In this document: positions 34,388 through 56,681 of the stretch, in pieces
How positions within the stretch are numbered: position 1 is the stretch's first letter
How the letters are laid out: the number at the start of each line of letters is the position of its first letter
NCBI RefSeq assembly: GCF_002874775.1
Contig: NZ_CP020991.1
Location: forward strand, 1,121,225-1,185,224
Source: Monoglobus pectinilyticus
GTDB lineage: Bacteria; Bacillota; Clostridia; Monoglobales; Monoglobaceae
Length of the DNA: 64,000 nt
Direction: 5' to 3'
Translations under genes and position numbers: made by a program
The notes under the pieces: generated by a model
What the model saw: only the letters and a program-made list of their open reading frames with translations
What the model was told of the DNA's origin: nothing
The model's database searches: none

Positions 34388-34404
34388 TTATCTCTTTGAG
34401 AACT
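34388..34404. repeat. attL, 17-bp direct repeat
   Basis: TTATCTCTTTGAGAACT, identical to 56665-56681 at the rpsI 3' end. It marks the left boundary of the mobilizable element. Confidence 0.85.
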
Positions 34405-35295: not shown

Positions 35296-35342
35296 CATTT
35301 CATTAAGGACTTCTTACGTTTAAAGAAGTCCTTAATGAAATG
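35296..35342 (+). promoter_or_regulatory. Perfect 20-bp hairpin in the BREX leader
   Basis: The arms 35296-35315 and 35323-35342 are exact reverse complements with a 7-base loop (core AAGGACTTCTT / AAGAAGTCCTT). No T run follows, so an attenuator, an mRNA-stability stem or an operator fits better than a plain terminator. Confidence 0.65.
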
Positions 35343-35407
35343 TTTGAATTATAGGTGTTAAAAAACAATGGAATAAATATGAAGCAGTCATCCTGCTCGA
35401 TTATTAT

Positions 35408-35626
35408 TTGCATTATTTAGATGGAAAATTATCACGAAAAGAAGCAATTCAAATAGTGTCTGTAAAATTAAGAGAATTAGCAAAAAAACAAAATGTTTTT
35501 ATCGATGATGTATATAGAAATGTTAATGGAATTACATTTCAAATGCATAGTATGGAGTCGGCATATAAAGGTTACACGGTAGTTAAGCCGGCTTCTAACT
35601 ATTTATTGAAACTGTTAAACTATTAA
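35408..35626 (+). CDS. N-terminal module of the first BREX-island gene (split by frameshift)
   Basis: The open frame actually continues upstream to about 35350 (KQWNKYEAVILLDYYL) without an ATG; a TTG at 35408 is the first usual start. The module has SRKEAIQIVSVKLRELAKK, then IDDVYRNVNGITFQMHSMESAY, a pattern I recall as an N-terminal domain of various large clostridial proteins. After KPAS the frame ends, while the expected continuation (LFIETVKLLREDRRQFDKLL) runs in the frame of the 860-residue gene that follows. One missing base in the AA run near 35600 would join them. Probably not a separate gene. Confidence 0.6.
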   Translation: MHYLDGKLSRKEAIQIVSVKLRELAKKQNVFIDDVYRNVNGITFQMHSMESAYKGYTVVKPASNYLLKLLNY

Positions 35627-35673
35627 GAGAAGATAGAAGGCAGTTTGATAAACTACTGGAGGAGGCGAAGAAA

Positions 35674-38256
35674 ATGATTGAAGCAACTGAAAAAGATAAC
35701 CGAGAGCGTTATGTCGATTGGTTATCCCAAAAGGTATCTCCTGCTCAGTTATCCGAACTGTATATGTCGTATGAAGTTATAGATGAATTCTGCATCAAAA
35801 CAAAAGTATTAAAGCAATCACTTCTCAAGACGACAGATATAGACATAATAAAAATGGCTCAAAAAACTGTTGAGCAAAATAAATTATTCCGCTATCAGCA
35901 TAAAAGAGAAATCAGTAAAATTTGTTCTGCTATGCGATATTATATTACATACATAAAAGAAAATATTTCAGCGAAAAGTGAGAATAAAAGTTCAATGGGG
36001 ATAGGACTCGAAACAATATCTAAAACAGAATTACCGATTCCTGAAACTGAAATAAAGAAAAATACGGCTAATGTTGTCGCTGCTCATCTTATTGAAGATG
36101 AGAATGCTGATAACCCCCAAGCAATTAAAGAGCTTTCATTTTCTGAAATATCTGACCTAGCATATACAAAACCTATATATGCATCATATTTTGGTGATGA
36201 AATTCAAGGTTTTTCTTCTTGGAAACAACTTTATATAAAGGTATTCAAAAAACTATATGATGACTACGCTGATGTCATACCTTTGAACAAATCATTCAAC
36301 ACCGTCAACGGAAGAATGGATTTTTGCACAAGTGAGCATTACGGTTTAATGGTTGCTCCAAAAGAAATATTGAATGAGAAATACTTGGAAACAAACTTAA
36401 GTGCAATAGATATTGTTCGTAAAATTAAAAGTTTACTCGATATATGCTTGGTCGATGAAGAAAATTTGATAATCAAGTACGAAAAGAAAGCAGATATCCA
36501 CCCATCTGAAGAATTGAAATCTTCAAAAAGAATCAAGAATAACGCTAACGGAGAAGCTTTTTTTAATTGGCTTAATAATGAACAAGGTATGGCGATTCCT
36601 ACTTGTCGCAGTTATGTCTCTGCTGTAAACACTGCTGAACAATATGCTATAGATAATGAATTTGTTAATTGTCGACTTTATTCGGATAATTATCATGAAG
36701 CCAAAGCAACTGCTGATGAATTGTTTAGCAATAAATTTTTTATGGAATATAACGACAAACAACATAATCGCTTTAGAGCTGGAATAAACAAGTTATTGCT
36801 ATACATTAGCAGTAGCGGAAACACTATTGTGACACCAACAATATCTATTAACATTGAACCATTTACCGAAATCCTTATTGAAAAATTTTCAAAAGGATAT
36901 AGAATAAACTCTCCTCTTGAACTTAGAAAGTTTAAAAAGTATTGGGAAAAATATCACGACAGTATGATTGATATGGATGATGATAACATCACAAAGTGTA
37001 TTCAACAGTGTGGAATTATCCACGAAGAAAAGGTATATATACCAGAAAAAATTCTTGATGAAGATACACGAATGAAATTATTCTCGTTTATTAACGATAA
37101 CTTTCAATCAGGGAAGACAGTTATTTACTATGAAGCTTTATTTAAAGAATTTTCAGATGATTTTCTTGACCATTGTATGTATAATGCAAGTATGTTAAAA
37201 GCTTACTTGACATATATGAATGATGGTAATTATTACATCGGTAAAAACTTCATATCTAAAGATGCCAATGTTAGTACTACACTTTATGATGAAATAAAAA
37301 ATTGTCTTGTTCAACAAACGTCTCCAATGGAAGATAGTGAAATGTTTTCAATTCTTTCTCATATTCCAGAGCAGAAGATTAAAACAGTACTCAACCAGTA
37401 TGGCGAATTCATCAGTAATAGTCGTGGCGAACATTTTCATATTAGTGCTGTTACACTTAGCTACGACGAGCTGGAAGATATAGCAACAATTATTCAACAC
37501 TCAATTGATGAAAAACGATTTATAAGTGGTAATGAGTTGATTGATATTATAAAGAAAAAATATCCTTATATCATTGAGCAAAACACTTTAATATCTGATA
37601 AAGGTTTGAGAGATGCTATTGGCTTTAAATTAAGAAGCAGATTTTCATTTAAAGGAAATATTATTAGTTCTAAAGGACAAGCACTGTCAATGATGGAGGT
37701 ATTTGCAGACTTCTGTAAACATAAAGATTCATTTACTCTTGATGAATTGAAAATACTTAAACAAGAATTAGATACAGTAATTTATTTTGAAGCAGTTTAT
37801 GACAATTCCCTAAGAATAAACAAAAATGAATTTGTCACAAAATTTCACGCTTCTTTTAACCTTGCAAAAACAGATGAAGCGATAGACCGTTTTTGTATTG
37901 GAGATTATATTGCTATTGGGGAAATTAAACAATTTGGATTGTTTCCAGACGCAGGATTTAACTGGAATAGTTTTCTGCTTGAACACTATGTTGCAAAGTA
38001 CAGTCCAAATTACAAACTGGTACACTCTAGCTATAATGAAGGCGTTTGTGTCGGTGCCATTGTAAAAAAAATCTCTGACATAGATACACTAGATGAATTA
38101 GTAATAGATGTGCTTGCCAAAAATGGACTTCCTTTACAAAAGGAAACAGCTTTGCAATATTTGTGTGATAAGGGTTATTTAGCTCGACGGAGTTATTCTG
38201 GTATTGAACAACTACTTATCAAGGCAAAAGAACTAAGAAACCAGAAGGGATTTTAA
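35674..38256 (+). CDS. Large uncharacterised protein at the head of the BREX type 4 island
   Basis: 860 residues as read, about 950 with the frame-split N-terminal module. I do not recognise a catalytic domain. Residues ~288-375 (FFNWLNNEQGMAIPTCRSYV onward) resemble the SAM-like core-binding fold seen in integrases and McrB-type N-termini. The C-terminal half reads as a row of winged-helix-like units (for example DELVIDVLAKNGLPLQKETA near 812). No Walker, methylase or nuclease motif is seen. It is 4 bp before brxP and part of the same transcript. A DNA-binding or target-recognition role is a guess from layout; it is not among the BREX core genes I know. Confidence 0.6.
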   Translation: MIEATEKDNRERYVDWLSQKVSPAQLSELYMSYEVIDEFCIKTKVLKQSLLKTTDIDIIKMAQKTVEQNKLFRYQHKREISKICSAMRYYITYIKENISAKSENKSSMGIGLETISKTELPIPETEIKKNTANVVAAHLIEDENADNPQAIKELSFSEISDLAYTKPIYASYFGDEIQGFSSWKQLYIKVFKKLYDDYADVIPLNKSFNTVNGRMDFCTSEHYGLMVAPKEILNEKYLETNLSAIDIVRKIKSLLDICLVDEENLIIKYEKKADIHPSEELKSSKRIKNNANGEAFFNWLNNEQGMAIPTCRSYVSAVNTAEQYAIDNEFVNCRLYSDNYHEAKATADELFSNKFFMEYNDKQHNRFRAGINKLLLYISSSGNTIVTPTISINIEPFTEILIEKFSKGYRINSPLELRKFKKYWEKYHDSMIDMDDDNITKCIQQCGIIHEEKVYIPEKILDEDTRMKLFSFINDNFQSGKTVIYYEALFKEFSDDFLDHCMYNASMLKAYLTYMNDGNYYIGKNFISKDANVSTTLYDEIKNCLVQQTSPMEDSEMFSILSHIPEQKIKTVLNQYGEFISNSRGEHFHISAVTLSYDELEDIATIIQHSIDEKRFISGNELIDIIKKKYPYIIEQNTLISDKGLRDAIGFKLRSRFSFKGNIISSKGQALSMMEVFADFCKHKDSFTLDELKILKQELDTVIYFEAVYDNSLRINKNEFVTKFHASFNLAKTDEAIDRFCIGDYIAIGEIKQFGLFPDAGFNWNSFLLEHYVAKYSPNYKLVHSSYNEGVCVGAIVKKISDIDTLDELVIDVLAKNGLPLQKETALQYLCDKGYLARRSYSGIEQLLIKAKELRNQKGF

Positions 38257-38260
38257 AAAT

Positions 38261-40582
38261 ATGTATTCATACGAATGGGATTTAGAAACTGGTGGTCTGC
38301 TATTAAATAGTTCTCCACTATCTTTTAGTAAGGAGCCAAGACCGGTTTATTATAAGGAATTAGATATTCTAGGATTTGATAAATACTGGAATTACGATAA
38401 GAACGACACCTATCCATATATGTGGGTAGAGGCAAATAATTATTGGTATAGAGGAAGGCTTGTCGCAAAAACAAAAGGAGGCTCGTTATATTCTGCACCG
38501 GAGCTGATAATTGTAGATGAGCCCGAACCAAACAATGAGCCATTGCGATTTGTAGACATTCCGGGAATGGTAGAAAAAAACAAAGACCTGTTAGAAAAAC
38601 TTACGCAGGATACAATAAAAAAAGTGTTTAACACTTATGTTGAATACAAAGATAGAGTCGATGTTTTCTACATTGCATTTAGCGGAGGTAAAGACAGTAT
38701 TGTAACCCTTGATATTGTACAAAGAGCGTTACCTCATAATACATTTAAAGTATTGTTTGGTGATACAGGAATGGAGTTTCCTGATACATATGATGCTGTA
38801 AATAAAATTGAAGATGAATGCCATAATAATGGGATTGAGTTTATTAGGGCGAAATCTGATTTTACCCCAAATGAATCTTGGAGAAAATTTGGTCCGCCAG
38901 CAACTGTAACAAGATGGTGTTGTAGCGTACATAAGACAGCGCCACAAGTTCTTGCATTGAGAGAATTAACTGGAAAACCAAATTTTACAGGTATGGCATT
39001 TATAGGTGTTAGAGCGAGTGAGAGTTTATCTCGTAGCGAATATGACTATGTGAGCTTAGGAGAAAAACATAAAGGGCAATACAGTTGCAACCCTATCCTT
39101 GAGTGGAACTCTGCTGAGTTGTATTTATATATATATTCAGAAGGCATTCTTTTAAGTGAAGCTTACAAAAAAGGAAATCGTAGAGCGGGATGTCTTGTAT
39201 GTCCAAGAGCTGCTGAGAGAAATGACTATATGGCAAGAATTTGGTACACAAAAGAATTTGATTCATTGATTGATGCTGTAAAGTGTATGTATAAAAAAAG
39301 CTTTACTTCAGAAGCACAGCTGGACGACTTTATAGCAAACGGTGGTTGGAAAGCAAGGAAAAACGGTAGGGATATTGATATGCAGATGAACTATGTAGAA
39401 TCGACAGGTAAAGATGTACATTCTATAAAAATTACAAATGCAAAAACACCGTGGAAGGAATGGATTAAGACAATTGGTATTTTATTAAACGATACTTCCC
39501 CTTATAAAATAATGTTTAGAAATGAACAATATGAAGTTCAGGTTATTGAAAAAAATGATAATATCGAAGTAAGGTATGATGCTTCATTACCAAAACAAAA
39601 TCCATTATTCATAAAACTCTTAAAAAGTGTTTTTAGAAAATCAGCGTGTTGTGTCAAATGTAGAGAATGTGAAGCAGACTGCCATAATGGATGCATCACA
39701 ATGAAAGATGGTGTATTTGAAATAAATGATAAATGTGTTCATTGCTCGCAATGTCACAAAGTCGAAAAAGGATGTTTAGTATATAAATCATTAGAAATGC
39801 CAAAAGGAGGACTAAAAATGTCTGCAACAAAAAGTTTAAATTGCTATTCACATCACGCTCCTAAGATGGAGTGGTTTCAACAATACTTCAGTTATAAAAA
39901 TGATTTTGATGATAGACACTCTCTTGGATCGCAAATGTACAGTTTCTTTAAAAGATTTTTGAGAGATGCTGAACTGTTAGATGAAACAGGATTTAGCAAA
40001 ACTGCTCAAGTTATTGACAAATTAGGACTTGATTCAGACTCAGCTTGGGCGATTATGTTGTCAAATCTAGCATATACTCCTCAATTTAATTGGTTGATTA
40101 AACGAATGAATATGAATGAAACCTATGGCAAGGATTATACTATTTCTTTATTGGTTTCGGATGGAGCTAAGGAAAGTTGGGTAAAGGATATTTGGAGTTC
40201 TTTCTCAAGATTTGTAGAACTGCCATTCAGCGAGGTGGGATTTGGATTTGCAACAAAAGAAAAAAATAAACTAATATCAATTACTAGAATGCCGTGGCAA
40301 AATCCTGACCCTCGTGTAATTCTTTATAGTTTGTATAAGTTTGCTGAGAGCTGCGGTGATTACTATCAGTTTACCCTTTCTCGCCTACTAAATCACGATA
40401 TAGATAGTGATGGTGTAAGTCCGACAGAAATCTTTGGTATTGAACGTGAGCAGATGGAAAAAATTCTTAATGGTTTATCTGTAAACTATCCAGAATTCAT
40501 TACAAGTTCATTCACATTGGACTTGGATAATATCACTTTGCGAAACGATAAAACATCAAAAGATGTTCTTGAGTTGTTCTAA
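38261..40582 (+). CDS. brxP: BrxP: PAPS-reductase/DndC-like protein with ferredoxin and DUF4007-like domains
   Basis: 773 residues. At ~150 FSGGKDSIVTLDIV is the PP-loop of the PAPS-reductase/DndC fold, which activates by adenylation. RWCCSVHK near 222 and GCLVCPRAAERNDY near 308 supply Cys residues that can hold an Fe-S cluster. Residues ~465-505 form a two-cluster ferredoxin (CVKCRECEADCHNGC, then CVHCSQCHKVEKGC). The C-terminal ~250 residues resemble DUF4007. In BREX type 4 this protein takes the place of the methylase PglX. With the island's cysteine desulfurase it suggests sulfur transfer onto DNA (inference). Confidence 0.82.
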   Translation: MYSYEWDLETGGLLLNSSPLSFSKEPRPVYYKELDILGFDKYWNYDKNDTYPYMWVEANNYWYRGRLVAKTKGGSLYSAPELIIVDEPEPNNEPLRFVDIPGMVEKNKDLLEKLTQDTIKKVFNTYVEYKDRVDVFYIAFSGGKDSIVTLDIVQRALPHNTFKVLFGDTGMEFPDTYDAVNKIEDECHNNGIEFIRAKSDFTPNESWRKFGPPATVTRWCCSVHKTAPQVLALRELTGKPNFTGMAFIGVRASESLSRSEYDYVSLGEKHKGQYSCNPILEWNSAELYLYIYSEGILLSEAYKKGNRRAGCLVCPRAAERNDYMARIWYTKEFDSLIDAVKCMYKKSFTSEAQLDDFIANGGWKARKNGRDIDMQMNYVESTGKDVHSIKITNAKTPWKEWIKTIGILLNDTSPYKIMFRNEQYEVQVIEKNDNIEVRYDASLPKQNPLFIKLLKSVFRKSACCVKCRECEADCHNGCITMKDGVFEINDKCVHCSQCHKVEKGCLVYKSLEMPKGGLKMSATKSLNCYSHHAPKMEWFQQYFSYKNDFDDRHSLGSQMYSFFKRFLRDAELLDETGFSKTAQVIDKLGLDSDSAWAIMLSNLAYTPQFNWLIKRMNMNETYGKDYTISLLVSDGAKESWVKDIWSSFSRFVELPFSEVGFGFATKEKNKLISITRMPWQNPDPRVILYSLYKFAESCGDYYQFTLSRLLNHDIDSDGVSPTEIFGIEREQMEKILNGLSVNYPEFITSSFTLDLDNITLRNDKTSKDVLELF

Positions 40583-40594
40583 GGAGGAAAAAAT

Positions 40595-42094
40595 ATGGCA
40601 TTTGATAAATATCGTCATTATTTTGACATAGACCCAGACTACTTTCCGGCGGTAAATGAAGCTGTTATTAACAACAATCCTGATATGTGGAAAAAATATT
40701 ATCCACACGCTACATTCATTAAATTAGTTAAGGATACGGTTAATGTGCTTCGTAAGGAGCAAAAGCGTTCAATTTGGGTTGAGGGGGCTTACGGAACTGG
40801 TAAATCACACGCCGTACTAACTTTGAAAAAACTGCTTGATGCTTCTGAAGAAGAAACAAAGGAATATTTCGAAAAATTTCAAATGGATAATGACCTTTTT
40901 AACAAACTTCAAGGGGCAAAGAATAGTGGAGAAATTCTCACTGTACATAGATATGGTTCTTCCTCTATTCGTGGTGACCACAATCTCGTGTTTGCTATTC
41001 AGGAAAGCATTGAAAAAGCTTTTAAAGATAAAGGCATAGAAAATAAAGGCAATAGCGCCCTTAAAGGAGCTATTATTAAATGGCTTGAAGACTCTGCAAA
41101 TAAAAATTATTTTAATTCTCTTGTAACTGGAGAATATTCAAACCTATTCGGTGGAGATAATGCGGATGATATTCTTGAAAAATTAAACACTTTATCAGGT
41201 GATGCCCTGATTGCTCTTATGGATAAAATTTTCAAGGTTGCTGATGAACGTCAAATAAAAGTATTATCTTTAGACACCACAGGTCTTGTAGCTTGGATTA
41301 AAGAGATTATAAAAGCTAATAACCTTAAAGCCATTGTATTTATTTGGGACGAATTTACAGAATTTTTTAATAATAACACTAGAAGTCTCACTGGTTTTCA
41401 AGAAATTGCTGAAATTAGTGAAACAGACCCATTTTATTTGATAATTGTAACTCATAAGAGCGCAGGCTTGTTTGATGATGCTGATAAAGATAAGTCAAAG
41501 ATTCTTGACCGTTTTATTAAACCTACTTGTATTATTGAGCTTCCTGAAAATATGGCGTTCCAACTTATGGGTGCTGCTATGGAGAAAAATCAGGATGAAG
41601 CTGTTCTTGATGATTGGGAGATGACTGTTGATGACCTTTATGATAGAACTTACGACTCCAGAAAAATTGTAAAAGCCAGTGCAAATATATCGGACAAGGA
41701 ATTGAAAGATATTCTTCCAATTCATCCTTATACTGCACTATTGTTAAAACATATTTCTTCTGCGTTTGACTCTAATCAACGTAGTATGTTTGACTTCATC
41801 AAAAATGATAGAGGTGATGAAATCAAAGGCTTTCAATGGTTTATTGATAACTACGGTCCGGATGATGATAATCCGCTGCTTACTATAGATATGCTATGGG
41901 AATTCTTCTATGAAAAAGGCAAAGAATATCTTTCTCACGATATTCGCTCTATCTTAGATTGCTATTCTCGTGCAGCAACAAAACAGCTTAGTAACGAAGA
42001 AAAAAAGTATTACAGACAGTTCTTCTTTTGCAAGCAATATCTCAAAAAGTTGGCGATTCGGTTGAACTTTTTATTCCTAATGAAAAGAATATAA
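40595..42094 (+). CDS. brxC: BrxC-type ATPase, N-terminal part (frame break after ~residue 470)
   Basis: 499 residues as read; the authentic part ends at about residue 471. It contains the AAA+ core of BrxC/PglY: Walker A EGAYGTGKSHAV near residue 69 and Walker B AIVFIWDEFTEFF near 249, plus a LIIVTHKSAG sensor segment. AAGGAGG lies before the ATG. From 42,007 the proper sequence (VLQTVLLLQAISQKVGDS) continues in the -1 frame, while this frame runs into unrelated residues and stops. The break lies on the heptamer A AAA AAG. Full-length BrxC would be ~1,400 residues, the usual size. It is a core BREX ATPase. Confidence 0.82.
   Translation: MAFDKYRHYFDIDPDYFPAVNEAVINNNPDMWKKYYPHATFIKLVKDTVNVLRKEQKRSIWVEGAYGTGKSHAVLTLKKLLDASEEETKEYFEKFQMDNDLFNKLQGAKNSGEILTVHRYGSSSIRGDHNLVFAIQESIEKAFKDKGIENKGNSALKGAIIKWLEDSANKNYFNSLVTGEYSNLFGGDNADDILEKLNTLSGDALIALMDKIFKVADERQIKVLSLDTTGLVAWIKEIIKANNLKAIVFIWDEFTEFFNNNTRSLTGFQEIAEISETDPFYLIIVTHKSAGLFDDADKDKSKILDRFIKPTCIIELPENMAFQLMGAAMEKNQDEAVLDDWEMTVDDLYDRTYDSRKIVKASANISDKELKDILPIHPYTALLLKHISSAFDSNQRSMFDFIKNDRGDEIKGFQWFIDNYGPDDDNPLLTIDMLWEFFYEKGKEYLSHDIRSILDCYSRAATKQLSNEEKKYYRQFFFCKQYLKKLAIRLNFLFLMKRI
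42001..42007 (+). other. A AAA AAG slippery heptamer at the brxC frame break
   Basis: Zero-frame codons read GAA AAA AAG with the heptamer in phase, and the downstream brxC frame is exactly -1. Slipping here yields full-length BrxC. A seven-A tract that was once eight would look the same. No clear downstream stem or upstream ribosome-like spacer was found. Confidence 0.5.
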
Positions 42095-44790
42095 ACAACG
42101 CATTTGAAGGCTCCGATATGGACAGTGGAGCTGCCGGAAGATGTGCGGAGAAGCTTGTACGTGATGAAATTCTTTATAAAAAACCTCTTGGTGGTGGTAA
42201 AACGCAATACTCCGCTTTAGTAAATGCTGGAGATATGGCAGCTATCGAGAAATTCAAAGAAGAAGTAAAGAAAAAGACAACCTCAACACTGGTCAACGAA
42301 GGACAGGTATCTGAGGCTGTAACATTAGGTGGTGCATTAAAGTTACGTTATGAAATGAGATATGTTTCATCTTCTGATTTTGATTCGACTATCAAGTTAT
42401 TACGCAATCAGGAAAGTAACTATATTAACAAGATTGTCGCTGTTGTATCTTTTGCAAAAGATGATAGCGAAAGTGTTGTTCTCGGCAAAAAAATTAAGAA
42501 TGCATTAAAAGACGGTAGTTACAAAATGATATTTGTTGATGCGTCTACTACCCCACTAGGAAAAGATGGATACGAGCAATATTGTGAAAATATGGCTCAG
42601 GCAATGTATCATCAAGGCAAAGATAACAACTTGGCTCGTCAGTATGAAACAAATGCAAAAGAAGCTTTGAAAAAGTGGAAGAATCGTATTTCCGGCGGTG
42701 AATTTATTGTTTACACTTCCGAAAAACAAGATGGTGAAAGAGCTACAACGATTGAGATGTTATACTCCACGCTTTCCGACATTAACAAAACTAAGTACAA
42801 GAATTGTTTAGAAGGGACTTATAATGTTACTGATAATATGTATATGCCTAGTTCTTTGAAACAAGGTGTTGCTTGTGGTGTTAAACAAGAAGTTCAAGGA
42901 ACATTTAAATCCGCAAACCCTGCAACAAAACTTGAAAATGCGTTGGGTGAAGCTTGGAAGTACGAAGGAAAATACTGGGTAGACAAACCTCATCTTTTGA
43001 TTTCTAAAATAAAGATTAGTGTAGAAAAGATTATCAAAGATGCTTTCGATAATGGCGGTCGTATTTCTATTGCAAGAATATATGATGAATTAAAGGCAGA
43101 ACCTTTTGGTTTTATGCCTTGTAACCTCTCGGCATTTGTCTTAGGCTTTGTATTAAAGGAATATGTTGATGGTACATTCAGTTGGAGTGATGGTTTGACT
43201 AACGATGTGCTGAGTATCAATAAATTGCAAGAGATGGTTGATGAAATTATCAAATTGCAGATTACCCCTAACCCGAGATATAAAGATAAATATATTGTTG
43301 CAATGACTGAAGATGAAAAAGCGTTCAACGAAGCAACATCTATTGCATTCGAAATATCGAAAAGTCTTTGTACATCTATTGAACAAACTAGAGAACGTAT
43401 TCGCAGTAAAATGAAAGAATACACATTCCCTATTTGGACTATTAAATCTATTATTTCTGACGTAGAAACTCAAACAAATAAGGATATTCTTATAAAAATT
43501 CTTGATTATTATTGTGGTATTGCGAATAGTAACAATATGGGAGCTGGCAGCACAAGTGATAATGATATTGCTTATGCGATTGGTAAACTTTGCATTGAGA
43601 ACAAGGAAGCTGCAAATGACTTAAAGATACTTCTGAACAAAGAGAAATGTACTGAAGGTATGAAGGCTTATCTAAAAGAATTTGATAATGGCGAACTGAT
43701 TACATTAGCTGAAAAGGCTGGAGATAGTGGACAGTATATCAATATTCTCCGTAAAAAATTTGATGCAGATGCAGCAAACTGGGTATGGAATGTTGAAACT
43801 GCACAGCAGAAAATCCGAGAAGTCATACTCGAATACAAGATTATTGTTGAGAGCAATAAAGTTATTTCTAAAAGCACAACATTTGAAAATACCGTGAGAG
43901 AATGGTGCGACAAATGTCAGTATATTAGAATTTCTTACCCTGCTGCAAAAAATTATTTGGATGGATTTAGTGCCTTCTTGGAAGTTCTTTACAATGTAAA
44001 AAAATCCGGAGTAATCTTAGATTCTCAAAAACAAAAATTCTATGATTTGCTCATTGCTAATGCAGACAATTTTAGAACACTCTATGGTAACCAAATTGAT
44101 TTATTCAAGAAAGTTTGCGAGTTCTATCTTGAAGGATTTACCGATGAAGAAATCAAAGAAATTTATAATACTATTCCTACTGGTTCATTTACGAAGGATA
44201 AGACAGAGTATACAAATATAATCAATAACAAGGTCGAAGAATACAAGAGGAACAGTAAATCTGCGAAACTGAAAAAAATATGGAAAGAAAAAACTAATAC
44301 AGATACACCAAGAGAATGGTCTAAAAAATATAAGATGCCTATTTTGTGTATGGTTGAAGATAAGGAAATTCAAATAGCGAAAGCTGCATTTGGCGCTGTA
44401 AACAAAGCGCATCCTGATGAGGCTTCCATCGACAAAGCTATTGCTTATTTTTCAACAGCTACTTTCTTCACAAAATTAGATGATGAAAATGCTCGCAATA
44501 AGGCATTTGTTGATTCGATTATTAAAAATTATGATGTAATGCTTACCAATCTAGATGAAGTAAAACAATATTTGGATAGCCGAATTACGGCAGACGCATA
44601 TGATTGGTTTGGTTTGCCAGAAGTTGAAAAGAAGCTGAGACAAATGGCAGAAGCAAAATACAATCAAGGTGGATGCGATAAGGCTCTTGAGAAAATTGAC
44701 AATATGATTTTAGAAGATGTTAAAAGATACTTAAAAGACCTTATCAAAGACGATATGATAGTTGGTATGGCAATCATAAAAGATAATTAA
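42028..44790 (+). CDS. brxC: BrxC-type protein, C-terminal part
   Basis: 920 residues in the frame -1 to the N-terminal part. It starts within QAISQKVGDSVELFIPNEKN, typical mid-protein BrxC sequence, so the Met at 42028 is not a natural start. The segment is mostly helical, with long charged regions and no second Walker motif, as in the large C-terminal body of BrxC/PglY. The reading frame is intact for 2.76 kb and keeps coding composition. This argues that BrxC is made by frameshifting, or that the break is recent or a base error. It ends 11 bp before pglZ. Confidence 0.82.
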   Translation: MQAISQKVGDSVELFIPNEKNINNAFEGSDMDSGAAGRCAEKLVRDEILYKKPLGGGKTQYSALVNAGDMAAIEKFKEEVKKKTTSTLVNEGQVSEAVTLGGALKLRYEMRYVSSSDFDSTIKLLRNQESNYINKIVAVVSFAKDDSESVVLGKKIKNALKDGSYKMIFVDASTTPLGKDGYEQYCENMAQAMYHQGKDNNLARQYETNAKEALKKWKNRISGGEFIVYTSEKQDGERATTIEMLYSTLSDINKTKYKNCLEGTYNVTDNMYMPSSLKQGVACGVKQEVQGTFKSANPATKLENALGEAWKYEGKYWVDKPHLLISKIKISVEKIIKDAFDNGGRISIARIYDELKAEPFGFMPCNLSAFVLGFVLKEYVDGTFSWSDGLTNDVLSINKLQEMVDEIIKLQITPNPRYKDKYIVAMTEDEKAFNEATSIAFEISKSLCTSIEQTRERIRSKMKEYTFPIWTIKSIISDVETQTNKDILIKILDYYCGIANSNNMGAGSTSDNDIAYAIGKLCIENKEAANDLKILLNKEKCTEGMKAYLKEFDNGELITLAEKAGDSGQYINILRKKFDADAANWVWNVETAQQKIREVILEYKIIVESNKVISKSTTFENTVREWCDKCQYIRISYPAAKNYLDGFSAFLEVLYNVKKSGVILDSQKQKFYDLLIANADNFRTLYGNQIDLFKKVCEFYLEGFTDEEIKEIYNTIPTGSFTKDKTEYTNIINNKVEEYKRNSKSAKLKKIWKEKTNTDTPREWSKKYKMPILCMVEDKEIQIAKAAFGAVNKAHPDEASIDKAIAYFSTATFFTKLDDENARNKAFVDSIIKNYDVMLTNLDEVKQYLDSRITADAYDWFGLPEVEKKLRQMAEAKYNQGGCDKALEKIDNMILEDVKRYLKDLIKDDMIVGMAIIKDN

Positions 44791-44801
44791 GGAGGACAGG
44801 G

Positions 44802-47072
44802 ATGAAACTTGATGCTTGTATAAAAAAGATAACTAAATATTTGGCATCAGAAATTGCTCAACCGTTACTTGTAAATGTTCAAAATGGTGATGATTTAGAT
44901 AGAATAGTAACCCATTTCTCCGTGGATGATAATGACATTATTGATGCTTCTGAATTTTGCAATAAAGATGAGCTTCCTCGTATAGAAACCCTGTTAGCCA
45001 ATATTTCAACCGAAAAGAAAAAATGTTTTCTTGTAGGGTTGACTTCATTTTTAAGATTCTACGGAGAAGAAGAAATAAAAAAATATTTAGTAAGCATCAT
45101 CAATATGACTATTTCCGGTCACGTTGTAGTTATGACATATCAATGTGAGAAACAATTGAACTTTTCTGACCCAAGATTATCACGCAGTATTTGTTTGATT
45201 GATGGAGATGAGACGTCATTACCCCAAATAGTCTTTGTGTCGAGGGAACTACCAGTTCCTTCGGACGAATGTATCGTTGATGGAATTGAAAAGGTTGTCA
45301 AAAAAATTGAAAATTCAAATGAAGAAAAGATTTTTGTGATAACAACAAAACATAAGGATACATACCCAAAATCTATTTATACAATAGTAGATATGAGCAA
45401 AGCGTATGAGGTCATCATTGGAAAAGATGTTGTTTTATCTTCACTTGATGAAACATTCGGAACTTCAAGTCAATGGGACTATTTACTTACTAAAATGAAT
45501 TCAGGGAAATCATTTACTGAAATATGTGACAGTGAGTTTGGCAGTCATCAAAGTCTTGAGATAGCAATCCCAAGTTATAGCGGATATTCTGAACAGAAAA
45601 AATGGTTATATTATATTGCATTAAAACTCTTTGGAGCCAAAAACAATAATTGTTTGTCAATGGCAGCAAATAATTCTAAAACATATTCGCAGTTAATAAG
45701 AGAAGTGTTTAGAAGCATATTGGAAAAGAAACATACAGATTATGATTTCAACGAGTTCTATCAACAAAGAAAATCTTTGCTAATGGCTTTCGGAAATCCA
45801 TTAAATGAGGTTGTTGATTTTTGCAAGGTTGTTTTGCAAAAAGAAGAACAAGCTATTTATTACTTAACAGATAATACAAGGCAAGAAAAGGAACTTATAA
45901 TAACCTTGCTTGAAAAGTATTATCAAAACACTTCTAAAAATGAAATAGAGAAAATACTCTCCCTCGTATATCCTGACCTATATGCTTATATTCGTGATTA
46001 TAGATACAATGTGCCTTTATTGGATAATTACTTTTCTATGTATACATATAGCAAAGTAATTAACAAAGTAATTCCGGAATTAGAGGAACTAATGACACAG
46101 CAGGCAAGACTTCGAGAGTATAATTTGATACTTGAACCTCGAACTGCAAAAATGGATAAGATTGATAAAACTGATTCACAGCTATACTTTATGGATGCGA
46201 TGGGTGTCGAATATCTGTCATATATTCTTGCTAAGTGTAAAGAGAAAGAACTGATGGCTAATACAACAATCTGTTGTGCTAATTTACCATCTATCACAAG
46301 TAAGAACAAAGAATTTGTAAGTGATTTCGAAACAAGAGGACTTTTAGTAAATTCAATAAAAGAACTGGATGAAATCAAACATCACGGCACTAACGATTAC
46401 GATTACAGACAGAGAAAACAACCTATTCACATAATACGAGAGCTAGAAATTATTGACGAAACGCTTGATAATATCAAATTAAAGCTAACTCAAGGGAACT
46501 GTGAAAAAGCTATTATGGTATCAGACCACGGTGCTAGTAGATTGGCAGTAATACACGAAACTGAAAATATGTGGGAAATGCAGTCAAAGGGAGAACACTC
46601 TGGAAGATGTTGCCCTAAAACCGATGCAGATGTGAAAAGTGAATTTGCAACAGAAGAAGATGGTTTTTGGGTTATTGCTAATTATGACCGCTTCAAAGGT
46701 GGCAGAAAAGCAAATGTTGAGGTGCACGGAGGTGCTACTTTAGAAGAGGTTGTAGTGCCTATTATTGAAATCACTAAATTTGCTGAGGATATTGAAGTGT
46801 CTATTATCGAAAAAGTTATTACAGTTAGCTTTAGGAAAAAAGCAGCTATAAGACTATTTTCTAAGACAAAACTACAAAACGTTGCGGTTCTTATTGACGG
46901 AAAGTATTATGACGCTAAAGAACAAGATAATAATATGTACCTTGTAGATATGCCACAGTTAAAAAAAGCTAAGAGATATAGTGTTGATGTTTATGCATCA
47001 AATAATTTAATTGCTACCGGCTTATCTTTTGAAATTAAGAAAGAAAGCTCACAAGAAAAAGATTTGCTATAA
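44802..47072 (+). CDS. pglZ: PglZ-domain protein (BREX core)
   Basis: 756 residues. The C-terminal half has the PglZ fold of the alkaline phosphatase superfamily: YFMDAMGVEYLSYILAK near residue 465 carries the metal-binding Asp, AIMVSDHGASRLAVI near 572 the Asp-His pair, and VEVHGGATLEEVVVPII near 645 the final His. The N-terminal half is a variable helical domain. PglZ is the hallmark of all BREX systems; it is needed for host DNA marking and phage block. GGAGG lies before the ATG. Genes on both sides are separated by only 11-12 bp. Confidence 0.87.
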   Translation: MKLDACIKKITKYLASEIAQPLLVNVQNGDDLDRIVTHFSVDDNDIIDASEFCNKDELPRIETLLANISTEKKKCFLVGLTSFLRFYGEEEIKKYLVSIINMTISGHVVVMTYQCEKQLNFSDPRLSRSICLIDGDETSLPQIVFVSRELPVPSDECIVDGIEKVVKKIENSNEEKIFVITTKHKDTYPKSIYTIVDMSKAYEVIIGKDVVLSSLDETFGTSSQWDYLLTKMNSGKSFTEICDSEFGSHQSLEIAIPSYSGYSEQKKWLYYIALKLFGAKNNNCLSMAANNSKTYSQLIREVFRSILEKKHTDYDFNEFYQQRKSLLMAFGNPLNEVVDFCKVVLQKEEQAIYYLTDNTRQEKELIITLLEKYYQNTSKNEIEKILSLVYPDLYAYIRDYRYNVPLLDNYFSMYTYSKVINKVIPELEELMTQQARLREYNLILEPRTAKMDKIDKTDSQLYFMDAMGVEYLSYILAKCKEKELMANTTICCANLPSITSKNKEFVSDFETRGLLVNSIKELDEIKHHGTNDYDYRQRKQPIHIIRELEIIDETLDNIKLKLTQGNCEKAIMVSDHGASRLAVIHETENMWEMQSKGEHSGRCCPKTDADVKSEFATEEDGFWVIANYDRFKGGRKANVEVHGGATLEEVVVPIIEITKFAEDIEVSIIEKVITVSFRKKAAIRLFSKTKLQNVAVLIDGKYYDAKEQDNNMYLVDMPQLKKAKRYSVDVYASNNLIATGLSFEIKKESSQEKDLL

Positions 47073-47084
47073 GGAGGACAAGAA

Positions 47085-48530
47085 ATGCAAGAAAAACTTA
47101 GAGAATGCTTTGATGAAATGGTTGTTTATAAAGACCTTAAAAAAAGCAATTTCTTTTCGGCTTTAAGTTTACCGTCTTTCCTTCGAGATTGGTTGTTAAA
47201 AAAATTTGGTGACGATGAAGGTAATTTTGATATAGACGAACTTACAGATTTTATTCACACTTATCTCCCCCGTAAGGATGAGTGGATAAGTATAAAAAAT
47301 CGAATCATTGTAGAAAACGAACGAGTAAAGATTCTTACAAAGATTACGGTCGATATTAACATTAAAAATCAAGAAATCACATTTGCTTTACCGGACTTTG
47401 GCTTAACAAATAAAGAAACGATCATTGAACCATATGTTTGGGAAGAGTGCAAAGATGAATTGGTTAAAGGAAAAGAGACTTGGGGTGTTGTCGAATTAGG
47501 CTACAGGTTGCCGGATGAAGAACTAAAGATGCCGGGTAAAATCAAGTTGACTAATTTCACTAATTTTTGTCCGTATACAATAGATCTTGATTATTACAAA
47601 GATGTAAGAAGCGAATTTACTGTCAGTGAATGGATTGATGTTTTATTGGGGGCAATTGACTATAATGCTGATGGCTATGAAGATGAACATCAAAAGTTAG
47701 CTATGCTAACTCGATTGTTGCCATTTATTGAAAAAAGACTCAACTTGATAGAACTTGCACCAAAGGGTACTGGTAAATCATACTTGTTTGGGCGAGTAAG
47801 TAAATTTGGATGGCTTTCTTCTGGTGGAGTAATGTCCAGAGCAAAAATGTTTTATGACATTAGCAAAAGGACACAAGGACTTGTGTGCAATAACGACTAT
47901 GTAGCATTAGATGAAGTTCAGACCATTTCCTTTACTGATATAGATGAAATGAGAGCAGCACTAAAAGGCTATATGGAGTCTGGCGTTTTTACGGTAGGAA
48001 ATTATGAAGGTGTGGCAGATTCAGGAATTATTCTGTTAGGAAATATTAGTCAGGATAATATGGACGAATATAAAAGTATGTTTTCCGAATTACCTACTGC
48101 TTTTCACGAAAGTGCATTATTAGACAGATTCCACGGTTTTATTAAAGGATGGGATATTCCAAGAATGCACGATGATTTAAAAATTTCCAGTTGGGCATTA
48201 AACTCAGAGTATTTTTGTACGATTATGCATATGCTTCGTGATGATGCCAGTTATCGTGCTATTGTTGATAAATTGGTAGAAGTTCCGGAACATTCTGACA
48301 CAAGAGATACTGAAGCTGTAAAAAGAATATGTACTGCGTATCTAAAACTCTTGTTCCCTAATGTTCGTTCTGTTGATGATGTAAATGTTCGTGAATTTAA
48401 TCGCTATTGTTTAAGACCTGCTACAAAAATGAGAGGAATTATAAAGATTCAGCTCGGTATTCTTGATTCTGAATTTAAGGGTAAAAATGTACCAAGTTTT
48501 TCGGTGAGGGATATTAGTAATGAAAATTGA
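47085..48530 (+). CDS. brxL: BrxL-type AAA+ protein (short form without Lon protease domain)
   Basis: 481 residues. The AAA+ core has Walker A LAPKGTGKSYLFGR near residue 224, then WLSSGGVMSRAKMFYDI, and Walker B YVALDEVQTISF near 272, the pattern of the BrxL/TIGR02688 family. The C-terminus ends soon after the AAA+ lid, so the Lon-like S16 protease part of longer BrxL proteins is missing. BrxL assembles into rings on DNA and is needed for BREX defence in studied systems. AAGGAGG lies before the ATG. It overlaps the next gene by 11 bp. Confidence 0.83.
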   Translation: MQEKLRECFDEMVVYKDLKKSNFFSALSLPSFLRDWLLKKFGDDEGNFDIDELTDFIHTYLPRKDEWISIKNRIIVENERVKILTKITVDINIKNQEITFALPDFGLTNKETIIEPYVWEECKDELVKGKETWGVVELGYRLPDEELKMPGKIKLTNFTNFCPYTIDLDYYKDVRSEFTVSEWIDVLLGAIDYNADGYEDEHQKLAMLTRLLPFIEKRLNLIELAPKGTGKSYLFGRVSKFGWLSSGGVMSRAKMFYDISKRTQGLVCNNDYVALDEVQTISFTDIDEMRAALKGYMESGVFTVGNYEGVADSGIILLGNISQDNMDEYKSMFSELPTAFHESALLDRFHGFIKGWDIPRMHDDLKISSWALNSEYFCTIMHMLRDDASYRAIVDKLVEVPEHSDTRDTEAVKRICTAYLKLLFPNVRSVDDVNVREFNRYCLRPATKMRGIIKIQLGILDSEFKGKNVPSFSVRDISNEN

Positions 48531-48717
48531 TTGTGTTATTTGCGGAAAAAATGATTTAGAAAAAGATACGATTGGTATAAATAAAAAGCTTTTGGGAATT
48601 GATATTACCAATTTTTATTGTATGGATTGTCTTGCAGAGTATTTAGGTTGTACAGTTGAGGAATTGTTGGATAAAATCGAAGAATTTAAAGAGGAAGGTT
48701 GTACTCTGTTTTTGTAA
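48520..48717 (+). CDS. Small CxxC...CxxC zinc-ribbon protein of the island
   Basis: 65 residues. Two Cys pairs, CVICGKND at residue 5 and FYCMDCLAEYLGC near residue 33, form a zinc-ribbon or small Fe-S site, and the rest is an acidic helix. The gene overlaps brxL by 11 bp, so it is translationally coupled to it. It is next to the cysteine desulfurase, so a sulfur-relay or adaptor role is possible, but there is no direct evidence. A third Cys lies near the end (EEGCTLFL). Confidence 0.65.
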   Translation: MKIDCVICGKNDLEKDTIGINKKLLGIDITNFYCMDCLAEYLGCTVEELLDKIEEFKEEGCTLFL

Positions 48718-48764
48718 ATCAAAACGAAAACAAAGTGCTTTCAAAAGTATTAAAGGATGTGTTT

Positions 48765-49892
48765 ATGAAAAAATTGGTTTACGCTGATAATGCAGCAACA
48801 ACAAAACTTGATGATGAAGCTTTCGAAGCTATGAAACCATATTTGCTAAACGATTATGGCAATGCTTCACAACCCTATTCATTTTCAAGAGCAAGTAAAA
48901 AAGCTTTAAAAAATGCAAGGCAAATAATTGCAGAATGTATTAACGCCCAACCAGAAGAAATCTACTTTACTTCTGGTGGTACAGAAAGCGATAATTGGGC
49001 AATAAAAGGAACATTTTTCTTAAATAATAAAGGTAGAATTATTACATCTGAAATAGAACATCACGCTATTTTAAACAGCACTAAAGCTATTGAGAGTATG
49101 GGATGTGAAGTGGTCTATCTCAAACCAACAAAAGAAGGTTTAATAACAATAGATGAATTGTCTAAAGCAGTTACAAAACAAACAAGTTTAGTATCTGTAA
49201 TGTTTGCAAATAATGAAATTGGTACTATACAACCAATTAAAGAATTAGCGAAAATTGCACATAAGTCGGGGGCGTTGTTTCACACTGATGCTGTACAAGC
49301 TGTTGGACATATAAAGCTCGATGTGAAAGACTTAGATGTTGATATGTTATCTGCATCTGCCCATAAATTTAACGGTCCTAAAGGAATAGGATTTCTATAC
49401 ATAAAGAACGGAACTCCGCTTATCCCCTATATTGACGGCGGAGCTCAAGAATCATCATTAAGAGCAGGTACAGAAAATATTGCCTCTATTGTTGGTATGG
49501 CTTATGCATTAAAGAAGAACTGTGAACAAATAGAAAAAAACACGAGTAAGGTAAGGGAACTGGAAAAAGATTTATTAGATTTACTTGGAGTTTCAAATAA
49601 TAAGGAAATCATAAAAAATGGTGGCAATAATACACTACCGGGGACTATTAGTCTTTCATTTAAAAATCAGAATGGTGAAGCTATGCTCCATCGTTTAGAC
49701 TTAAAGGGAATATGTGTTTCTACTGGTTCAGCTTGTGATGGTAAAGATACTAATATTTCTCACGTATTAAAAGCAATAAAATTAGACGAGAAATATGCGA
49801 ACGGCACCATTAGAATTTCTTTGAGTAAAAATAACACAAAAGATGAAATTATGATAATTTATGAAGAAATTAAAAGAATTCTGCAAAAATAG
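48765..49892 (+). CDS. Cysteine desulfurase (IscS/NifS/DndA-type)
   Basis: 375 residues. This PLP enzyme takes sulfur from cysteine onto an active-site Cys. YADNAATTKL opens the fold, FTSGGTESDNWAI near residue 73 and HTDAVQAVGH bind PLP, SAHKFNGPKGIGFLY near 200 has the Schiff-base Lys, and STGSACDGKD near 322 the catalytic Cys. Start ATG 48765 is chosen because AAGGATG lies just upstream. In dnd and ssp clusters a desulfurase of this family feeds sulfur to a DndC-like partner for DNA phosphorothioation. Here brxP would be that partner (inference). No iscU or tRNA-thiolation gene is nearby. Confidence 0.85.
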   Translation: MKKLVYADNAATTKLDDEAFEAMKPYLLNDYGNASQPYSFSRASKKALKNARQIIAECINAQPEEIYFTSGGTESDNWAIKGTFFLNNKGRIITSEIEHHAILNSTKAIESMGCEVVYLKPTKEGLITIDELSKAVTKQTSLVSVMFANNEIGTIQPIKELAKIAHKSGALFHTDAVQAVGHIKLDVKDLDVDMLSASAHKFNGPKGIGFLYIKNGTPLIPYIDGGAQESSLRAGTENIASIVGMAYALKKNCEQIEKNTSKVRELEKDLLDLLGVSNNKEIIKNGGNNTLPGTISLSFKNQNGEAMLHRLDLKGICVSTGSACDGKDTNISHVLKAIKLDEKYANGTIRISLSKNNTKDEIMIIYEEIKRILQK

Positions 49893-49914: not shown

Positions 49915-50895
49915 ATGGCAGAATATAATAAACCAAGAATTTTATATCTCAAAAGAATATTAGAAGAAAAAACTGACGAGGAACATCCGCTAACTACAAG
50001 TCAGCTTATAGAAATATTAAATACAGAGTTTGGTATCTATGCCCATCGAACCACTATATCAAAAGATATTGCTGCCCTCGTAGACTTTGGGATGGACATC
50101 GTGACCATTCATTCGACTCAAAGCAAATATTTTGTTGCAAGCCGTAAGTTTGAGTTGCCGGAGTTGAAGCTGTTGATTGATGCAGTTGAATCTTCAAAGT
50201 TTATTACAGAAAAGAAAAGCAGAGCGTTAATTGACAAAATTCATTCTTTGACAAGCGAAGGTCAAGTATCTAAACTCAAAAGAAACAACTATGTAGCCGA
50301 ACGGATTAAACCGGATAATGAGCAGATTTATTACATAGTGGATACCATAAATGACGCAATCAATGAAGGAAAAAAGATTTCATTTCAATATTATGACTAT
50401 ACCGGGCTGAAGAAAAAGGTACTGAAAAATAAAGGCGAAATCTATACCCTCAGTCCATATCACCTTGTTTGGAGCGGAGATTACTATTATGTAATGGGCT
50501 ACTCCGATAAGAAGAATAAGGTTGTCACCTTCCGAGTAGACCGTATTGCTGCAAATCCGAAAATTATAGAAGCGGATATTGTACCTCAGCCGGATAACTT
50601 TGAGCTTGCTGATGTTATCAAAAAAGTGTTTAATATGTATGATGGTCAGGAAGTAACCGTTGACCTGCGCTGTGATAACAGTCTGATGAAAAAGATGATT
50701 GATCGTTTCGGGGAAGATGTTAAAATTCTTGCTTATGATATGACTTCATTCAGGCTTCTTACAGATATTTCTGTCAGCCCTAACTTTTTCGGATGGGTGT
50801 TTGGTTTCGGTGGCAAGGTTCAGATACTTGCACCTAAAGAAGTCAAAGAGCAGTATAGACAAATGATTATTCACACAGCAGAAGAATTTGAGTGA
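49915..50895 (+). CDS. HTH-WYL transcriptional regulator of the island
   Basis: 326 residues. The N-terminal winged HTH is at residues 8-60 (ILYLKRILEEKTDEEHPLTT, then AHRTTISKDIAALVDFGMDI). The WYL domain is at ~130-230 with FQYYDYTG, LSPYHLVWSGDYYYVMGYSD and VTFRVDRI, and a WCX-type C-terminal domain follows. WYL regulators (BrxR/CapW type) control BREX and other defence operons, probably by sensing nucleotide ligands. Here it is the last gene of the island rather than the first. GAGG lies before the ATG. The upstream gap to the desulfurase gene is 22 bp. Confidence 0.83.
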   Translation: MAEYNKPRILYLKRILEEKTDEEHPLTTSQLIEILNTEFGIYAHRTTISKDIAALVDFGMDIVTIHSTQSKYFVASRKFELPELKLLIDAVESSKFITEKKSRALIDKIHSLTSEGQVSKLKRNNYVAERIKPDNEQIYYIVDTINDAINEGKKISFQYYDYTGLKKKVLKNKGEIYTLSPYHLVWSGDYYYVMGYSDKKNKVVTFRVDRIAANPKIIEADIVPQPDNFELADVIKKVFNMYDGQEVTVDLRCDNSLMKKMIDRFGEDVKILAYDMTSFRLLTDISVSPNFFGWVFGFGGKVQILAPKEVKEQYRQMIIHTAEEFE

Positions 50896-51287: not shown

Positions 51288-52622
51288 TTACCTATTTTTT
51301 GTCATATAGGCTATGCCTTTTCTTTTATTTTCGTTTTCTCGCTTTGAATCTTCTTCAAGCTCTAAAGCTCTTTTGTATCTTTCACTTATACGCTTTGAAT
51401 CAACCTCAATATTTTTACACATACGCACATCCTTGCGAAGTTTCTCTAGTCTTTTGTTGATTTTGGATCTCTCATTGTCCTTTTCGGGATTGCCATATAT
51501 TGTTTTTCGTTTGCTTATCAATTCTTCAATTTCAGCTTGTGCAGATATTTTTCGGTTTTGCAGCTGTTCCGTTGTTTCCAAATCATTATCATACAGAAAA
51601 CGAAACTGCTTTTGATAACGCTCAAATTTGATGAGTTCATCACGCATATAAAACGATACTCTCTGCGGTGTTTCTCTTTTGCGTATTCGTCCAAACAGAT
51701 ACAGATAATGATAATACAAGGCCTTAAATCCTTTAAGCTTTACAGGTTCATATTTCTTAAGCCAAAAATTATAATCCAGTGTAGGTGCATAAAATTCTTT
51801 TATACCATTACGAGCATTGGATATACGCTGTTTTATTGCTTCTGCTGTGTATCTCTCGCCAAGGTTATCAATTCGTAAATATCTTTCTGCAAATGTGGGC
51901 TTAACAGCAATATACTTTCTGCAATCTTTAATTTCATAACCTCGCTTTTTGAGCGTTTTCCAAAATATATCCATTGTATACGACATCTTGATTATTTCAT
52001 CAATTTCATCTCTTACCTGACCTCGTATTGTGGGATATCCATTATTTTCGGCATACCACTCTGCATAATGTTTGGCTTTACCTTTTGGATTTCGTATTAC
52101 TGACAGATTATGTTCCTCGCAAAGTCTGTCCGACACCTTTCGCATACGATTATAATTAGCAGTATTATCGTAATACTTCTTGCCATCAACAAACGAAACA
52201 GAATTAATTACAAAGTGATTATGTATATGCTCTTTGTTAAGGTGAGTTGCAACTACCACCTCAAATCTATCTCCCCAAATTTCCTTTGCAAGCTTTACAC
52301 CAACACTATGAGCAATTTCAGGAGTTACCTCGCCAGGTTTAAAGCTCTGTATGGCATGGAATGCAATTATACCATTCGTTTTACCAAATCTTAATTTCGT
52401 TTGTTGCATTTTATGTGTTGCAGTATCGGGTGTAACATTGACACCCGATACAAACAATCTTTTTTCCGTTTTATAATCATCCGAAGCATATTCCATAATA
52501 TCATGCAAAGCTTGTATCTGTTTTTCTGAAAATTTATTATTGTCTGTTTTCTCAGGATTTGCTGCATAATTGATAAGGGAGTCAAGTCTGCCTTTTATAT
52601 CCCATATTTTTGTTGTAGCTAT
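51288..52622 (-). CDS. Relaxase/mobilization nuclease (MobA/VirD2 type)
   Basis: About 444 residues. It nicks the transfer origin and leads the strand during mobilization. The relaxase domain shows the two conserved motifs VVVATHLNKEHIHNHFVIN near residue 125 (the His triad) and the N-terminal INYAANPEKT. The rest is a charged coiled C-terminus. The conserved start (ATTKIWDIKGRLDSL) extends upstream of TTG 52508 to 52622, where the codon aligning with ATG is ATA, overlapping the mobC stop; AGAAGG is at the right distance. It is either a rare ATA start or a start-codon mutation. No coupling protein is encoded. Confidence 0.85.
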   Translation of the reverse strand: MATTKIWDIKGRLDSLINYAANPEKTDNNKFSEKQIQALHDIMEYASDDYKTEKRLFVSGVNVTPDTATHKMQQTKLRFGKTNGIIAFHAIQSFKPGEVTPEIAHSVGVKLAKEIWGDRFEVVVATHLNKEHIHNHFVINSVSFVDGKKYYDNTANYNRMRKVSDRLCEEHNLSVIRNPKGKAKHYAEWYAENNGYPTIRGQVRDEIDEIIKMSYTMDIFWKTLKKRGYEIKDCRKYIAVKPTFAERYLRIDNLGERYTAEAIKQRISNARNGIKEFYAPTLDYNFWLKKYEPVKLKGFKALYYHYLYLFGRIRKRETPQRVSFYMRDELIKFERYQKQFRFLYDNDLETTEQLQNRKISAQAEIEELISKRKTIYGNPEKDNERSKINKRLEKLRKDVRMCKNIEVDSKRISERYKRALELEEDSKRENENKRKGIAYMTKNR

Positions 52623-52969
52623 TTCAAAGCACCTTCTTTTAATTTGATTTTATCCGGCACGGTATAAAATTTGTTTATTATTAAAATTGCTTCGTCAAAT
52701 TTTTTTACTTGTTTTTCAAGCTTATCTACATCAAGCTTGCCCGTAGATTTTGCTATACCTAAAATTCCATACAGCTCATTTCCGATTTCCGTTAAAAGTG
52801 TTATGAATTTATTGTATTCATTTGGCGGTCGCTCTTTTGGTAAATATCGGTTGGCTGTTTTTCTTACAAATTCAGATTTAGTTATACCGCATTTTTTGAT
52901 TGCTTTTTCAAGATTTTCAAATTCTTTTTCACTTAATCTTACAGAAAAAGTCTTTGTTCTATTCCTCAT
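52619..52969 (-). CDS. mobC: MobC-type relaxosome accessory protein
   Basis: 116 residues. The N-terminus (TKTFSVRLSEKEFENLEKAI) is a ribbon-helix-helix DNA-binding domain, followed by ITKSEFVRKTANRY and a helical tail. MobC opens the oriT for the relaxase. It sits directly upstream of and overlaps the relaxase start. The candidate oriT lies just before it. AGGCGGG precedes the ATG. Confidence 0.83.
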   Translation of the reverse strand: MRNRTKTFSVRLSEKEFENLEKAIKKCGITKSEFVRKTANRYLPKERPPNEYNKFITLLTEIGNELYGILGIAKSTGKLDVDKLEKQVKKFDEAILIINKFYTVPDKIKLKEGALK

Positions 52970-56664: not shown

Positions 56665-56681
56665 TTATCTCTTTGAGAACT
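56665..56681. repeat. attR, 17-bp direct repeat in the rpsI 3' end
   Basis: TTATCTCTTTGAGAACT. It includes the rpsI stop codon and last codons (Phe-Ser-Lys-Arg), so insertion keeps the gene intact. The identical copy is at 34388-34404. Confidence 0.85.

Follow-up and report, generated by a model that had tools for sequence, protein, structure and literature searches.

The window analysed here is a stretch of 64,000 nucleotides from Monoglobus pectinilyticus (assembly GCF_002874775.1, contig NZ_CP020991.1, positions 1,121,225-1,185,224 of the forward strand), a bacterium whose genome is assembled in one contig of 2.76 Mb; all coordinates given below are window positions. On the plus strand, between 35674 and 49892, tightly packed genes encode an 860-residue protein, BrxP, BrxC in two frames, PglZ, BrxL, a 65-residue CxxC protein and a cysteine desulfurase. 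The locus is a type 4 BREX (bacteriophage exclusion) operon for defence against phages that brings its own enzyme for sulfur supply, and the preliminary description of this DNA had read it correctly as such. PADLOC, Pfam and NCBIfam models together name every protein of the cassette except the 860-residue upstream protein and the small CxxC protein.

A type 4 BREX operon and its carrier

The identity of the operon is supported by model matches for all four BREX proteins. BrxP (38261..40582, plus strand) matched the PADLOC BrxP model with 814.5 bits over profile positions 1-774 of 779, PglZ (44802..47072, plus strand) matched the NCBIfam model BREX_PglZ_4 with 483.5 bits at a cut-off of 140, and BrxL (47085..48530, plus strand) was found with 762 bits by the PADLOC BrxL model and with 415 bits by NCBIfam TIGR02688 (cut-off 329). 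BrxP and PglZ thus fit the type 4 models and BrxL fits its own models, each over almost the full length, and BrxC fits its family. The whole BrxC content is present but is spread over two plus-strand fragments in different frames, which correspond to PADLOC BrxC profile positions 3-467 (40595..42094) and 472-1373 (42028..44790) of 1376; this split had been overlooked in the preliminary description. PADLOC found no methyltransferase among the ten window proteins scanned, the remaining genome not being scanned for BREX methyltransferases. With a PAPS (3'-phosphoadenosine 5'-phosphosulfate)-reductase-like BrxP in place of the methyltransferase, a type 4 PglZ and BrxL, the composition is that of type 4 BREX.

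For comparison we used a set of 40 BrxP loci, labelled by numbers beginning with L. One relative, L004, is 98.2% identical over 14,680 bp, corresponding to window positions 35274-49948, a stretch that begins at the upstream gene and ends shortly after the desulfurase gene, and L004 itself extends approximately 630 bp beyond the point where its similarity to the window stops.

BrxP is a PP-loop sulfurtransferase with iron-sulfur (Fe-S) cysteines, a two-cluster ferredoxin part and an SspB/DUF4007-like end. The window protein matches Pfam PAPS_reduct with 104.8 bits, and in an alignment of 34 sequences (the window protein and those of 33 of the 40 loci) the SGGKDS loop (141-146), the pair C220-C221, C311-xx-C314 and the eight ferredoxin cysteines (464, 467, 470, 474, 492, 495, 498 and 505) are invariant in all 34. 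The PP-loop motif, the CxxC clusters and the two-cluster ferredoxin proposed before therefore hold. The CxxC motif is located about 90 residues downstream of the CC pair, and such a CC...CxxC arrangement is the 4Fe-4S signature of adenosine 5'-phosphosulfate reductases. At E<=1, PAPS_reduct is matched by 34 of 34 proteins, dicluster ferredoxin models by up to 23 and DUF4007 by seven (best 1.7e-8), and the window BrxP itself is not among these seven, so that the DUF4007-like nature of its end, also part of the preliminary description, rests on its relatives. It is further supported by an alignment of the last ~240 residues of BrxP (11 sequences), which are collinear with the stand-alone SspB of three Ssp-like loci over 218 columns (hhalign probability 61%, E 8e-5).

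BrxP gave matches at E<=0.001 in 57 of 60 genomes from the genus, family, order and class (its own included), but all others were partial, with at most 36 bits compared to 815, and the other 59 genomes, many of them incomplete assemblies, are therefore counted as having no full-length BrxP. A plasmid collection yielded two distant records, which are two versions of one accession, and a phage collection two unannotated records, the better one with 47% identity across the whole protein.

The desulfurase gene, of the NifS/IscS type, is located at 48765..49892 on the plus strand. Its listed frame, 48699-49892, begins with a TTG at 48699, and matches to homologues begin at the ATG at 48765. Best models are NifS in NCBIfam as well as SspA and DndA in PADLOC; the scores stay below the NCBIfam cut-offs both for the DndA equivalog TIGR03235 (340.1 versus 480 bits) and for NifS (449.3 versus 530.75 bits). 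Residues K201 and C324, which we take to be the lysine that binds pyridoxal 5'-phosphate and the catalytic cysteine, are invariant in 23 aligned desulfurases (the window copy and those of 22 of the 25 desulfurase-containing loci), confirming the earlier statement that both are intact. Among the 29 informative loci, defined as those in which the end of brxL is present and followed by at least 1.2 kb, 25 have the desulfurase gene directly after brxL.

These desulfurases also group together. In a tree of 48 rows (58 before ten identical copies were removed; the rows of L032 and L038 are clipped by contig ends) 26 BREX-linked copies are separated by a branch with 96/92 support, recovered in 98% of 200 bootstrap trees, from 22 other NifS-type desulfurases, of which two come from the M. 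pectinilyticus genome and 20 from 12 BREX genomes. The tree was built leaving out eight of 38 desulfurase matches as well as DndA, SspA and SufS-type sequences, and since it is unrooted the BREX desulfurases form one branch and not a proven clade. The records on the BREX side are labelled Bacillota, Mycoplasmatota, Fibrobacterota and Hydrogenedentota. Judged from these sequences, the desulfurase is a member of a BREX-linked lineage rather than a chance neighbour.

The operon is flanked by a direct repeat. A 17-mer at 34388..34404, probably the left attachment site (attL), is repeated exactly at 56665..56681, the next longest exact match being 13 nucleotides. The right copy is the extreme 3' end of rpsI (56665-57060, minus strand), the frame of which matches ribosomal protein S9 over its whole length (best E 3e-62). 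With all four bases equally frequent, about 0.0015 such 17-mers would be expected by chance to be common to these 400 bases and the window, a value that rises in AT-rich DNA. Between the repeats are located a tyrosine integrase gene (55420..56472, plus strand; Pfam Phage_integrase, 64.1 bits), a gene for a Cro-like regulator, and on the minus strand genes for a MobA/VirD2-type relaxase (51288..52508; Pfam Relaxase, 139.6 bits) and a NikA-like mobilization protein (52619..52969; PF21983, 49.3 bits). Integrase, relaxase and a flanking repeat at the end of a target gene together characterise an integrative mobilizable element, and the region 34388-56681 is most likely such an element of approximately 22.3 kb, inserted in the 3' end of rpsI, with the BREX operon probably being its cargo.

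We consider it very probable that a mobilizable element integrated at rpsI carries here, as its cargo, a type 4 BREX cassette equipped with a dedicated cysteine desulfurase. Several observations weigh against this. Compared to L004, brxC and the 5' part of the upstream gene contain length differences that shift the frame. Four of the 29 informative loci (L022, L034, L035 and L039) have no adjacent desulfurase gene, showing that the enzyme is not indispensable in cis, and the genome of M. pectinilyticus encodes two further NifS-type desulfurases that could substitute for it. As to an empty integration site, the left flank has no counterpart in 11 other genomes of the genus except for one 68-bp match, and in six rpsI neighbourhoods that were compared the left-flank genes are absent but for one weak LysR match.

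In the comparison set another type 4 BREX operon is preceded, at a distance of a few kb, by a relaxase-like match with 35% identity to the window relaxase (L005:5477-6160), suggesting that this operon also resides on a mobile carrier.

The split brxC and the proposed sulfur mark

It is possible, at somewhat less than even odds, that this copy of the cassette is a decaying remnant, in which the split brxC and the broken upstream gene leave the strain with neither mark nor defence. Of 35 loci tested, 33 have the matched stretch of brxC open in a single frame, and L024 and L036 do not; this test covered 35 of the 40 loci and the matched stretch only, some stretches being clipped by contig ends, and L041 with its partial brxC matches was kept outside. 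The upstream gene is likewise broken, which had also been overlooked before, its 5' part (35340..35673, plus strand) being out of frame with the remainder, while both are continuous in L004, brxC in a single frame and the upstream gene in a frame of 968 residues, so that intact copies do exist. The presence of two frame-breaking differences in comparison with a relative that is 98% identical thus speaks for decay. On the other hand, brxP, pglZ, brxL, the CxxC gene and the desulfurase gene are all open and show no length difference from L004, and the brxC break is located near a homopolymer run, a frequent site of sequencing errors. Either this copy of the system does not function or the break stems from faulty sequencing, and because brxC is found in two frames, a sulfur mark in this M. 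pectinilyticus strain cannot be assumed.

The preliminary description had proposed that a desulfurase feeding a PP-loop sulfurtransferase marks the host DNA with sulfur instead of methyl. This is partly borne out. It fits the genes found here as well as the literature; it had been put forward with the brxC split overlooked, and unless that split is a sequencing error this strain may lack the mark. That type 4 BREX synthesises phosphorothioates has reportedly been described by Yuan et al. in 2026, a paper that PMC13326643 cites as Nat Commun 2026;17:1717. The genes brxPCZL are counted among three known phosphorothioate-making families (PMC11931770), type IV BREX phosphorothioate systems are mentioned in PMC12707154, and Rakesh and Krishnan 2026 (PMC12839542) report that 255 of 457 taxa have the desulfurase, and describe a small zinc-finger protein, a ferredoxin-like region of BrxP and the correspondence of the BrxP end to SspB. 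With these reports (PMC11931770, PMC12839542 and PMC12707154) the predicted sulfur mark is already in print; sulfur-writing BREX has been established by others, and the locus is therefore another instance of it. The production of phosphorothioate is taken from these publications, and gene content, motifs, linkage and the desulfurase branch come from the present analysis. What we add is the separate branch of BREX-linked desulfurases, the presence of the small gene in all 29 informative loci, the family of the upstream protein, the carrier element and the break in brxC. Three of these points can be checked: the desulfurase belongs to a BREX-linked lineage, the small CxxC gene comes after brxL also in loci lacking a neighbouring desulfurase, and the upstream family accompanies nearly all type 4 BREX loci examined.

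As the most likely mechanism we infer the following order of reactions and division of labour. The desulfurase would draw sulfur off cysteine as a persulfide, the PP-loop ATPase domain of BrxP would activate the DNA backbone, and the Fe-S domains of BrxP might help to swap oxygen for sulfur. Sites would be picked by the SspB/DUF4007-like end of BrxP together with BrxC, and PglZ and BrxL may act on unmarked phage DNA.

A different role of the desulfurase has to be considered, namely that it serves, together with the small CxxC protein, general Fe-S assembly or the loading of the BrxP clusters, with any DNA mark using housekeeping sulfur. The many cluster cysteines of BrxP need loading, and DndA assembles the cluster of DndC according to the title of a reference cited in PMC10853773. 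In addition, the top NCBIfam model of the enzyme is NifS, it resembles several structures of general desulfurases and IscS more closely than those of SspA (6m4j) or DndA (3vax), and the four loci lacking it next to brxL fit this role as well. However, the copies form one BREX-tied branch over several phyla, and the other desulfurases retrieved from the same genomes fall outside it. This separation fits a dedicated role, yet it does not distinguish sulfur donation from cluster loading. We regard Fe-S assembly or cluster loading in place of sulfur donation to DNA as rather unlikely, and a dedicated desulfurase that donates sulfur remains the preferred reading.

Compared with published type 4 BREX, consisting of brxPCZL, the desulfurase and a small zinc-finger gene (as set out in PMC12839542), the window contains the same gene set with the same BrxP layout, desulfurase and small CxxC gene. 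It differs in the split brxC, in the rpsI-integrated carrier and in its upstream gene, which is not named in PMC12839542 as far as its section 34 and the passages found there by search terms are concerned, supplements aside.

Two other sulfur systems have related components. In Ssp (SspABCD), SspD, SspC and SspB correspond to BrxP, BrxC and the end of BrxP, respectively (PMC12839542). There SspB stands alone, whereas in the window the SspB-like end is fused to BrxP, and a separate SspB was not found in the M. pectinilyticus genome when searched as DUF4007 at E<=1e-8, which separates the locus from Ssp. Three Ssp-like loci (L108-L110) showed no PglZ or BrxL in searches with the window proteins, and the desulfurases of L109 and L110 are only 24-26% identical to that of the window. 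One of them (L109:7057-14503) encodes a BrxP-like SspD that opens with extra CxxC motifs, after which come SspB as a protein of its own, SspC and a distant desulfurase.

Dnd (DndABCDE), whose components are covered together with those of Pbe in PMC10853773, has a NifS-like desulfurase and a PP-loop enzyme in common with the window. The window BrxP, however, reaches only 17 bits with the DndC model, and in the genome DndB and DndD were unmatched at E<=0.001 and DndC at E<=1e-60, in which the locus differs from Dnd. The earlier statement that DndB, DndD and DndE are absent is thus upheld genome-wide for the first two, DndE having been outside the search.

The small CxxC protein and the upstream family

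The gene for the small protein with two CxxC motifs (48520..48717, plus strand) overlaps the stop of brxL and corresponds to the CxxC zinc-ribbon gene noted previously. It follows brxL in all 29 informative loci, including the four without an adjacent desulfurase. The product has no match above a curated cut-off in the model libraries. In 25 aligned sequences (the window protein and those of 24 of the 29 loci), C5, C8, K23, C34, C37, G60, C61 and F64 are invariant, C61 being part of a GCxLF motif near the C-terminus.

The wider family is present in 20 of 391 genomes of the class, and in five of these 20 loci (the window's included) brxL and the desulfurase gene are located alongside. Fourteen other loci of the same class (L142-L147 and L149-L156) were examined; in 12 of them the small gene lies, by motif reading, beside an alpha-galactosidase-like frame, and the four such neighbours tested with Pfam all matched Melibiase_2. 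The C-terminal cysteine is kept in all 14 of these relatives and the exact GCxLF end in 12. The fifth cysteine is therefore not a mark of sulfur chemistry, and although the presence of the gene in 29 of 29 loci, even without an adjacent desulfurase, and the invariance of G60, C61 and F64 would suit a carrier relaying sulfur from the desulfurase to BrxP via this cysteine, we hold such a relay to be very improbable, since the same family with the same cysteine occurs next to alpha-galactosidase-like genes, a setting without obvious sulfur chemistry.

Directly upstream of brxP, at 35674..38256 on the plus strand, is the gene for the 860-residue protein, which belongs to a little-known family. This family was found directly 5' of brxP in 36 of the 37 loci with upstream sequence, the exception being L039. 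Its C-terminal ~470 residues are conserved, and the N-terminus varies in length. At E<=0.001 none of the Pfam, PADLOC and NCBIfam models matches the window protein, and among 32 members Pfam (E<=0.01) finds an integrase SAM-like domain in at most three and HARE-HTH in one. One of the 32 members matches the PADLOC candidate-defence model PDC-S57 (E 1.2e-8), and weak NCBIfam matches connect one member to tyrosine recombinases and one to FliZ; the family is thus not wholly unseen.

A profile of the family finds 22 of 391 genomes of the class, five strongly (>360 bits) and the others weakly (up to 211 bits). Four of the five strong genomes also have the small gene beside brxL, the fifth being G286. 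Two of the weaker relatives have neighbours that belong to phosphorothioate or restriction systems: one (L186, hhalign probability 99.3%) adjoins genes for PbeA, PbeC, DndB and DndC, and the other (L185) lies near a C5-methylase/NgoFVII gene on the opposite strand. Both have matches to the RNA polymerase alpha-CTD and to sigma-70 region 4. The upstream protein might tentatively be seen as a further, little-known core protein of type 4 BREX, and it may be a DNA-sensing or regulating part common to sulfur-marking systems, a suggestion we consider rather doubtful. Against a core role speak the weaker matches, which include loci without a recognisable defence gene, a genome with the small gene, brxL and the desulfurase in which the family is absent at E<=1e-5 (G295), and the exceptional locus L039. 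The plasmid collection contained no match to the protein. Being located near almost every type 4 BREX locus examined and extending to a Dnd-type locus, the family is nevertheless a candidate for how such systems sense or read DNA.

Neighbouring genes

Downstream of the desulfurase follows a gene for a WYL-domain regulator (49915..50895, plus strand; Pfam WYL), which probably lies outside the cassette. We rejected it as a cassette member; the similarity to L004 stops at 49948, just inside its start. The sole WYL match among the 40 loci was upstream in L015, although most loci end less than about 1 kb past the desulfurase gene.

Outside the element, a T-box leader was observed at 29427-29648 on the minus strand. 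It is located past the 3' end of a sodium:alanine symporter gene and would therefore lead the gene that follows below 29427.

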